From contig JAGXBI010000005.1 of NCBI GenBank assembly GCA_018971155.1, positions 1 to 34,120 of the forward strand: DNA of 34,120 bases. Reading direction: 5' to 3'. A program made the position numbers and the translations under genes. The DNA comes from Burkholderiales bacterium (GTDB taxonomy: Bacteria > Pseudomonadota > Gammaproteobacteria > Burkholderiales > Burkholderiaceae). The notes beneath the pieces were generated by a model. That model was not told the DNA's origin. It worked only from the letters and a program-made list of their open reading frames with translations, and searched no databases. Below are positions 15,573 through 18,461 of the stretch, one piece after another; positions within the stretch are counted from its first letter, which is position 1, and the number at the start of each line of letters is the position of its first letter.

Positions 15573-16760
15573 TCAGATATCCAGTCCGCGTGCCAGATCG
15601 GCACGGATGTCGGCAGCGTTTTCCAGCCCCACCGCGAGGCGAATCAGCCCCTCGGTAATACCCGCCGCGGCTCGTGCTTCTGGCGTAATGCGGCCATGGG
15701 TGGTGCTCGCGGGGTGGGTAATGGTGGTACGGGTGTCGCCCAGGTTACCCGTGATCGAGCAGATTTTCGTGTGATCGATCACGCGCCAGGCGTTGGCGCG
15801 CTGCTGTTCCGGGGTGTCGCCTTTGACCTCGAAGGCGACGATCGCCCCACCACTGCTTTGCTGGCGCATCGCCAGCGCGTGTTGCGGATGCGACGGCAGG
15901 CCGGGATAGTAGACACGGGCGATGCCGGGGTGCGCCTCGAGCCATCGGGCAATCTCCAGCGCATTGGCCGATTGCTGCACCATACGCAGCTTGAGCGTCT
16001 CCATGCCCTTGAGCAACACCCAGGCATTGAAGGCCGACAGGGTCGGCCCGGCGCTGCGCACGAAGGGAAATATTTTCCCCATGATGTACTCGCGGGTGCC
16101 GACCACCGCGCCGCCCAGCACACGCCCCTGGCCATCGAGGTACTTGGTCGCCGAATGCACGACCACGTCGGCGCCGAGCTTGATGGGCAGTTGCAGGGCC
16201 GGCGAACAGAAGCAGTTGTCGACCACGAACAGGGCTCCGGCCTGCTTTGCGATGCTGCCGATGGCGGCGATATCGGCAACCTCGGTCAGCGGGTTGGACG
16301 GCGTTTCCAGGAAGAACATCTTGGTGTCGGGTTCGATTGCCGCGCGCCACGCGTCGAGGTCGCTCGGATCGACGAAAGTCGTTCGGATACCAAATCGACT
16401 GAAGATCGCACTGAACATTTGCAGCGTCGAGCCGAAAATGCTTTGCGAGCTGACCAGATGATCGCCCGCGCTGAGCGTGCTCATGACCACCGACATGATC
16501 GCGCTCATGCCAGAGGCCGTTGCCATGCAGGCTTCGGCACCTTCGAGGGCCGCGAGCCGGTCCTGGAACATCGACACGGTCGGATTGGTGAAACGGGAGT
16601 AGACGAAACCCTCCTCCGATTTGGCAAAACGCTCGGCAGCCTCGGCCGCGCTCTTGAAGCAAAAACTGGAGGTCAGGAAAAGCGCTTCCGAATGCTCGTT
16701 GAAGTTGGTGCGCTCGGTGCCGGCGCGCACCGCCAGCGTATCGAAATCGAAGGCGTCCAT
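15573..16760 (-). CDS. metZ: O-succinylhomoserine sulfhydrylase
   Basis: MDAFDFDTLAVRAGTERTNFNEHSEALFLTSSFCF; Cys/Met PLP family motif VVHSATKYLDGQGRVLGG. Confidence 0.93.
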   Translation of the reverse strand: MDAFDFDTLAVRAGTERTNFNEHSEALFLTSSFCFKSAAEAAERFAKSEEGFVYSRFTNPTVSMFQDRLAALEGAEACMATASGMSAIMSVVMSTLSAGDHLVSSQSIFGSTLQMFSAIFSRFGIRTTFVDPSDLDAWRAAIEPDTKMFFLETPSNPLTEVADIAAIGSIAKQAGALFVVDNCFCSPALQLPIKLGADVVVHSATKYLDGQGRVLGGAVVGTREYIMGKIFPFVRSAGPTLSAFNAWVLLKGMETLKLRMVQQSANALEIARWLEAHPGIARVYYPGLPSHPQHALAMRQQSSGGAIVAFEVKGDTPEQQRANAWRVIDHTKICSITGNLGDTRTTITHPASTTHGRITPEARAAAGITEGLIRLAVGLENAADIRADLARGLDI

Positions 16761-16777
16761 GGAGGTATCCCTTATCA

Positions 16778-16815
16778 ATAAAAAAGCCCGTTTCGCTGGT
16801 CAGCAAAACGGGCTT
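16778..16815 (-). terminator. Intrinsic terminator just upstream of the metZ RBS (attenuator-like)
   Basis: Minus strand AAGCCCGTTT-tGCTGaccAGCg-AAACGGGCTT-TTTTA; 10-bp outer stem 16784-16793/16806-16815. Confidence 0.85.
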
Positions 16816-16832
16816 GAAATTCCATCTATCTA

Positions 16833-16896
16833 GGCCTCGCTTTAGCTGTTTCGAGGCTGGTTGCCCCGCGTCCGCAAGCTGAAATCAAATCGACGC
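16833..16896 (-). ncRNA. Candidate SAM-II-type (SAM_alpha) riboswitch aptamer upstream of metZ
   Basis: Minus RNA GCGUC-GAUUUGAUUUCAGCUUGCG-GACGC-GGGGCAACCAGCCUCG-AAACAGCUAAAG-CGAGGC. Perfect 5-bp P1 closing a 19-nt loop with AUUUG...CUUGC, then AAACA..GCUAAA downstream, resembling the remembered SAM-II consensus. Extended -10-like TGgTACACT at 16903-16911. Confidence 0.6.
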
Positions 16897-16931
16897 TCAT
16901 GCAGTGTACCACCCTGTGCCGCAACCCGCCA

Positions 16932-18461
16932 TCAGAGGCTCAGATGAGTGGCGCCCTCATCGTCCGTGCCGCCGTCAGTGCCGTCGCGGTCGCGTTGCGC
17001 GCGCGGCGACAGGCGCGCCTGCTCGAGCCGGTCGAGGTAGGCCGGGGTGACGTCGCCGGTGATGTAGTTGCCGTCGAAGCAGGATGCGTCGAAGTTGCTC
17101 AGCGCCGGATTGATGTCCATCACGGCCCGTTTCATGTCTTCGACGTCCTGGTATACCAGGGCGTCGGCGCCAATGATGCGCGCCACCTCTTCATCCGTGC
17201 GGTCGTGTGCAACCAGCTCGCTGCTGGTCGGCATATCGATGCCGTAGACGTTCGGGAATTTGACCGGCGGCGCGGCGGAGGCAAAGATCACCTTGCGGGC
17301 TCCGGCGTCGCGCGCCATCTGGACGATTTCCTGGCTGGTCGTGCCGCGCACGATCGAGTCGTCGACGATCAGCACGCATTTGTCCTTGAATTCGACGCGC
17401 ATCGCATTGAGCTTCTGGCGCACCGATTTCTTGCGTACCGCCTGGCCCGGCATGATGAAGGTGCGTCCCACGTAGCGGTTCTTGAAGAAACCCTCGCGAT
17501 AGTTGACGTTGAGCTGCTTGGCGACCTGCATGGCGGCGGGCCGGCTCGAGTCGGGAATCGGCATCACCACGTCGATCTCGTCGATCGGCAGGGTCCGCTT
17601 GATTTTTTCGGCAAGGTAGTCCCCCATGCGCAGCCGGGCGTCGTAGACCGGAACCCCGTCCAGGCACGAATCCGGCCGGGCCAGATAAACCAGCTCGAAA
17701 ATGCAGGGATTCAGGCTCGGTGCGTCGGCGCATTGCTGCGTATGCAGATTGCCATCGAGGTCGATGATGACGGCTTCGCCCGGTGCGACATCGCGCACGA
17801 AGGTGAACCCCATGCCCTCGAGCGCCACCGATTCGGAGGCAACCATCCACTCGGTACCGTTCGGGCCTTCGTGGCGGCCAAAGCACAGCGGCCGGATGCC
17901 GAAGGGGTCGCGGCATGCCAACAGGCCGAAGCCGGCAATCAGCGCGACGATCGCATAGGAGCCGCGCACGCGGCGGTGCATGCCCGAGACCGCCCGGAAC
18001 AGCCCTTCGCGCGACAGCGAGATATCGGTGCTGGCGGTTTGCAGTTCGTGCGCCAGCACGTTGAGCAGCACTTCCGAGTCGGAACTGGTGTTGATGTGGC
18101 GCCGGTCGACGCGGAACATCTCGTCCCGGAGCTGCTCCCAGTTGGTCAGGTTGCCGTTGTGCGCCATGATGATGCCGTACGGCGCGCTGACATAGAACGG
18201 CTGTGCCTCTTCGGCGCTGCTGGCCGATCCGGCCGTCGGGTAACGCACCTGCCCGATGCCGATGTTGCCTGGCAGGCTGCGCATGTTGCGCGTGCGAAAT
18301 ACGTCGCGCACCATGCCGTTGCCCTTGTGCATATGAAACGAGTTGCCGTTCGCGGTCGCGATACCGGCGGCGTCCTGTCCACGATGCTGCAACAACAGCA
18401 GGCTATCGTAAATGAACTGATTGACAGGCGATTTGGAAACTACCCCTACGATGCCGCACAT
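16932..18461 (-). CDS. purF: Amidophosphoribosyltransferase
   Basis: N-terminal MCGIVGVV (Ntn Cys nucleophile), VLIVDDSIVRGTTSQEIVQMARDAGA PRPP motif. Confidence 0.98.
   Translation of the reverse strand: MCGIVGVVSKSPVNQFIYDSLLLLQHRGQDAAGIATANGNSFHMHKGNGMVRDVFRTRNMRSLPGNIGIGQVRYPTAGSASSAEEAQPFYVSAPYGIIMAHNGNLTNWEQLRDEMFRVDRRHINTSSDSEVLLNVLAHELQTASTDISLSREGLFRAVSGMHRRVRGSYAIVALIAGFGLLACRDPFGIRPLCFGRHEGPNGTEWMVASESVALEGMGFTFVRDVAPGEAVIIDLDGNLHTQQCADAPSLNPCIFELVYLARPDSCLDGVPVYDARLRMGDYLAEKIKRTLPIDEIDVVMPIPDSSRPAAMQVAKQLNVNYREGFFKNRYVGRTFIMPGQAVRKKSVRQKLNAMRVEFKDKCVLIVDDSIVRGTTSQEIVQMARDAGARKVIFASAAPPVKFPNVYGIDMPTSSELVAHDRTDEEVARIIGADALVYQDVEDMKRAVMDINPALSNFDASCFDGNYITGDVTPAYLDRLEQARLSPRAQRDRDGTDGGTDDEGATHLSL

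Follow-up and report, generated by a model that had tools for sequence, protein, structure and literature searches.

A very probable SAM-II class riboswitch with an extra hairpin before metZ in a Burkholderiaceae bacterium, and its predicted control of transcription termination

How can metZ be expressed when an intrinsic terminator stands directly in front of it? The question is raised by the gap between purF and metZ on the minus strand of a 34,120-nt stretch of DNA from a Burkholderiaceae bacterium (contig JAGXBI010000005.1; the whole stretch is called the window). The metZ gene (15573-16760, minus strand, ATG at 16760) encodes an O-succinylhomoserine sulfhydrylase of 395 amino acids, recognized by the NCBIfam profiles NF006003 (727 bits, cut-off 522) and TIGR01325 (581 bits, cut-off 510). 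The upstream open reading frame (16932-18461, minus strand) is read as purF, encoding amidophosphoribosyltransferase, from its own sequence and the published purF-metZ order (PMC3521395). From purF to metZ, the minus strand presents an extended -10-like promoter element, a stem P1 with its loop, a hairpin GGGGC-AACCA-GCCUC, the stretch GAAACAGCUAAAGCGAGGCC and the terminator. The last of these (16778-16815, minus strand), found by terminator scan and folding, consists of a hairpin at 16815-16784 with a 14-bp stem, seven G-C pairs and a 4-nt loop, followed by a U tract that runs on to about 16778. Only 19 nt separate the end of the U tract from the metZ ATG, which is preceded by the Shine-Dalgarno-like AAGGGA (16768-16773, minus strand); an earlier note on this DNA had argued that metZ has no room here for a promoter of its own, and this distance bears it out. 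The same note had placed all the pieces it described correctly on the minus strand, but gave the terminator stem as 10 bp and overlooked the extra hairpin GGGGC/GCCUC (16867-16853), the main oddity of the region.

From a structural perspective, the leader is very probably a SAM-II class element (SAM_alpha, RF00521) carrying an additional hairpin, and hence a predicted SAM-sensing RNA switch. The 5' part of the core (16868-16896, minus strand), delimited by a covariance model match and by covariation of P1, comprises the strands GCGUC (16896-16892) and GACGC (16872-16868), which enclose the 19-nt loop GAUUUGAUUUCAGCUUGCG with its GAUUU and CUUGC motifs. The inserted hairpin, recognized by folding against shuffled sequences, occupies 16853-16867 (minus strand) at the start of L3, that is, at the junction between P1 and the A-rich linker. 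The 3' part (16833-16852, minus strand), defined by alignment and by P2 pair counts, contains the GAAACA linker, GCUAAA and the P2 3' strand GCGAGGCC, with GAAACAGCUAAAG at 16852-16840.

The standard models do not recognize this element. Scanned against Rfam at gathering cut-offs, the window as a whole gave no match, and RF00521, the model on which the earlier note had proposed to test its reading, reached 13.3 bits on the metZ leader against a cut-off of 36, with no significant match and coverage of model positions 11-41 of 79 only; weak matches elsewhere in the same genome scored 21.4 bits and below. The low score is explained by the hairpin, which follows the P1 3' strand, precedes the conserved AAACAGCUAAA and so splits the two halves of the core; the cut-off itself is the threshold of one model and not a structural feature. 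A second Rfam family, SAM-II long loops (RF01726), a separately modelled SAM-II variant reported from Bacteroidetes and marine sequences (Weinberg 2010, PMC2864571), yielded nothing in this genome with the limit relaxed to E 10.

A covariance model, R1, was made from 29 uninserted SAM-II elements that come from other families of the Burkholderiales and several of which RF00521 scores above its cut-off; it contains no sequence from the window's own family. R1 finds the element at full length (16897-16835, minus strand) with 33.1 bits, an E-value of 2.1e-7 and a 9-nt insertion, the runner-up within the window scoring 10.7 bits; genome-wide the E-value is 2.2e-5, all these E-values being rough because the calibration was short. 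On 38 other loci the model recovered the expected elements and nothing convincing where none was present, and at E <= 0.001 it matched in 120 of 150 Burkholderiaceae genomes. Moreover, a pattern search for the core gave a single occurrence in the 3.6-Mb genome, and hits in 37/120 and 112/249 genomes of two sets, in both of which a reversed control pattern gave 0.

The closeness to canonical SAM-II is best seen against one relative (L094) that reaches 45.2 bits with RF00521. Its sequence, GCGCC-GAUUUGAUAUCAGCUUGCG-GGCGC-GUUAAAAAUACC-GCUAAAGCGAGG, differs from that of the window, GCGUC-GAUUUGAUUUCAGCUUGCG-GACGC-[GGGGCAACCAGCCUC]GAAACA-GCUAAAGCGAGG, in one P1 pair that has changed in a compensatory way, a single base of L1 and the linker; GCUAAAGCGAGG is common to both. 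GAUUU, CUUGC and GCUAAA, taken as conserved SAM-II elements from RF00521-positive relatives, are unchanged in the window and invariant in the alignment (A3). P1 covaries, its fifth pair being C-G in nine sequences and U-A in five and its outer pair AU, UG, CG, UA or GU. The P2 pseudoknot, which would be formed by L1 with the strand around and after GCUAAA, is supported in part: two inner pairs are invariant and one outer pair covaries (UA/UG/CG/AU), and 79-83% of the cells of helix 2 in the relatives are paired and 17-21% unpaired; these relatives are not phylogenetically independent of one another. P1, the GAUUU/CUUGC loop, GCUAAA, the putative P2 strands, a promoter-like element near P1, a terminator between aptamer and gene and a methionine gene downstream are shared with SAM-II; the differences lie in the shorter A-rich linker of the window element and in the hairpin with which its L3 begins. 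On the grounds of homology, structural features and gene context the element is classed as a SAM-II riboswitch, with SAM as its presumed ligand.

The additional hairpin is a recurrent feature. Each of the 42 distinct inserts of relatives folds into a hairpin here. Its first base lies 0-2 nt behind P1 and its last 5-10 nt ahead of GCUAAA, and the mean z relative to shuffled sequences is -3.15; the insert of the window has a folding energy of -7.8 kcal/mol (z -3.75). The stems vary in sequence: GGGGC/GCCUC in the window, GACC/GGUC and GGCUUG/CAAGCC in two relatives (L137, L138). Burkholderiaceae metZ copies have a short tail behind the hairpin, GAAACA or near it; the metX copies of the same family, like some relatives outside it (L154-L157), retain the ordinary tail (AACAAAUACG and similar). 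In a search of largely open-access literature no description of this insert was found and, as far as that literature shows, the inserted hairpin is new. It shows why the standard SAM-II model misses the Burkholderiaceae. In Cupriavidus basilensis-type metZ leaders (L045, L063, L071, L079) the L3 inserts measure 69-76 nt, a much enlarged form of the same hairpin with a predicted branched fold.

Could such a change in L3 have altered what the RNA binds? With the linker cut to GAAACA and the hairpin in place of most of the canonical A-rich run, one might think of a SAM-II-derived RNA that now binds SAH or another methionine-cycle compound, the hairpin being part of a new pocket. We regard this as very improbable, given that GAUUU, CUUGC and GCUAAA are unchanged, that the intermediates L154-L157 combine the hairpin with a normal A-rich tail and that the targets are those of the canonical copies. 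A further proposal, which we put forward as a rather doubtful possibility, is that the Burkholderiaceae have evolved a distinct SAM-II subclass in which the hairpin, by replacing most of the A-rich L3, alters affinity, folding speed or ligand discrimination in a way that suits kinetic control of termination. If this were true, a genome with one copy at metX and another at metZ would sense a single pool through two sensors of different tuning. A hairpin tolerated within L3 also makes it possible to test directly how large a part of the SAM-II fold binding depends on.

The association of SAM-II with termination in beta-proteobacteria, which the earlier note had thought notable, has been on record since 2005-2007. 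In fact, the founding alignment (Corbino 2005) includes Bordetella and reports many terminators (PMC1273637), and a SAM-II element before metZ of the alpha-proteobacterium Sinorhizobium meliloti has been predicted to undergo SAM-induced intrinsic termination, yielding a short RNA, RZ (Scheuer 2022, PMC9373788); because of these precedents the architecture is not new. The S. meliloti switch resembles that of the window in gene and predicted mode of action but has no reported inserted hairpin. In our sample of 249 Burkholderiales genomes, RF00521 had matches at E <= 0.01 in 120 and exceeded its cut-off in 47 of these; it matched none of 14 control genomes and none of the sampled members of the window's own family. 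The 128 downstream proteins, named by NCBIfam, fall mainly into MetZ and MetX clusters, with MetK and MetH as single cases; the earlier note had called metZ a typical SAM-II target.

Two further records very likely describe the same RNA. The metXZ element of beta-proteobacteria (Leyn 2014) was proposed as a new kind of RNA element belonging to metX and metZ, with a pseudoknot, a downstream terminator and an unknown ligand (PMC4239095). Genes, taxa, the P1-like and pseudoknot pairings of conserved regions and the terminator all correspond to the present case, and no link to SAM-II was drawn; from the genes, taxa and pairings described, this orphan element is very probably the SAM-II variant seen here. 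The second record is Bp2_Cand287 (Khoo 2012), detected by RT-PCR (PMC3521395) and modelled in Rfam as a small RNA, Bp2_287 (RF02424). It concerns the same bases in Burkholderia and in the window, upstream of metZ and metX, and differs in being assigned to the opposite strand: RF02424 matches the plus strand of the window at 16781-16919 with 60.1 bits, below its gathering cut-off of 70, and scores 109.6 bits antisense to metZ in a Paraburkholderia relative. Since the model lies opposite to metZ in both cases, it represents the reverse complement of the aptamer. The probable identity of metXZ with SAM-II and the reading of RF02424 as a riboswitch on the opposite strand are both new as far as the searched literature shows, and they join three separate records, namely SAM-II, the orphan metXZ element and an antisense small RNA family.

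Taken at face value, RF02424 would imply a trans-acting small RNA transcribed from the plus strand, for which the 60.1-bit match and the RT-PCR detection (PMC3521395) speak. The conserved bases, however, form a SAM-II core in the sense of metZ, and this is also the direction of the promoter-like element, of the U tract and of the covarying P1; read in this direction, elements that share the core score above the RF00521 cut-off, and the discoverers themselves suggested a cis-acting methionine element (PMC3521395); a plus-strand regulator is therefore extremely improbable. Two published short transcripts of Burkholderia listed as Bp2_287 equivalents, BTH_s31 (143 nt, PMC4035088) and RIT77 (135 nt, PMC10987360), fit the predicted terminated leader of B. 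cenocepacia (138 nt). They would then probably be terminated riboswitch leaders that report the SAM level, and not trans-acting regulators.

The metZ leader is very probably a SAM-II class riboswitch that carries an additional hairpin in L3 and turns transcription off by SAM-induced intrinsic termination. The homology, the conserved P1, the inserted hairpin, the terminator and the competing duplex are results of computation, and SAM as ligand, the switching and the start site are inferred. Transcription would begin near P1. The -10-like element TGGTACACT (16903-16911, minus strand), identified by sequence, contains the hexamer TACACT (16908-16903, within TGgTACACT), which starts 12 nt before P1, and among 134 relatives there are 105 whose best -10-like hexamer likewise starts at a distance of 12-15 nt from P1, where shuffled sequences would give about 22; it is this conserved position that suggests the start site, a promoter scan of the window having found no consensus sigma-70 -35/-10 pair. 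When SAM is scarce, CAGC-U-AAAGCG-A-GGC (16848-16834, minus strand), inside the 3' part of the core, would pair with GCCCGUUUUGCUG (16813-16801), the 5' arm of the terminator, so that CAGCUAAAGCGAGGC of the P2 3' strand would be engaged over 13 bp and the polymerase would read through into metZ. When SAM is abundant, it would occupy the pocket of P1, L1 and GCUAAA, and the P2 pseudoknot would capture GCUAAAGCGA; with the P2 3' strand thus held, the terminator could form, and transcription would stop about 117 nt after the start of P1. Because the antiterminator strand is the P2 3' strand itself, SAM binding and antitermination would be mutually exclusive, and high SAM would therefore mean terminator formed and metZ off.

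Folding of successively longer transcripts, with energy models that ignore the pseudoknot, gives the antiterminator a probability of about 1 until the 3' arm of the terminator has been made, after which the terminator wins. At -17.4 kcal/mol the duplex is more stable than those with shuffled terminator arms (z -3.4, p 0.01); this p value is not independent, since the test was chosen after the window's own fold had been seen. The count over 75 relatives is the better test: 21 reach p <= 0.05, against about four expected, with patterns such as GCUAAAGCG/CGUUUUAGC. By the same duplex test no antiterminator was found in most Cupriavidus copies and several others, and the arrangement is not general. 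An alternative antiterminator, formed by the P1 5' strand and L1 with the terminator, is clear in some lineages (Burkholderia and the L098 type). On average it is not (mean z -0.36), nor does it reach significance in close relatives of the window element (z -0.8 to -1.4), and for the window the P2-strand antiterminator was therefore preferred. On sequence evidence, then, the earlier note's central claim of a SAM-II-type aptamer plus terminator before metZ is supported by homology, covariation, gene context and the computed antiterminator.

SAM-II switches that hide a Shine-Dalgarno sequence do exist, and the aptamer might act mainly on translation of metZ, the hairpin being the terminator of the upstream operon only. 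In the full-length fold of the window the P2 strand does pair with bases just ahead of the start codon, and a beta-proteobacterial relative (L104, see below) has its start codon directly after P2. In the window, however, the terminator stands between P2 and the Shine-Dalgarno sequence, which are about 65 nt apart, the short gap between U tract and ATG could not hold a second promoter, and the complementarity between P2 strand and terminator arm exceeds that of shuffles; control by translation is thus improbable here, and termination remains the preferred reading for metZ.

The genome of the window holds a second copy, found by R1 directly before metX (G000:C368:8576-8657, minus strand; L179 and L181), so that both steps from homoserine to homocysteine carry the element. 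This copy has GCUAAAGAGGUU, the metX start follows some 75 nt downstream, and a terminator with a U tract is not evident; it resembles the S. meliloti metA case with a distant Shine-Dalgarno sequence (PMC9373788). The core pattern was not found at several metZ genes of Paraburkholderia, Caballeronia and Cupriavidus (L008, L009, L039-L042, L046-L048, L054, L057 and others), and within the Burkholderiaceae repeated loss or relocation of the metZ copy is possible. In L104 (minus strand), GCUAAAGAGGUCUGCAUG contains a Shine-Dalgarno-like sequence that belongs to the P2 3' strand and is directly followed by a start codon, so beta-proteobacteria also have SAM-II elements of translational appearance. 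Finally, one locus (L102) carries a SAM-II element before metK (1501-1573) and, about 1.3 kb downstream, a SAH riboswitch (RF01057, 61 bits, 2916-2994).
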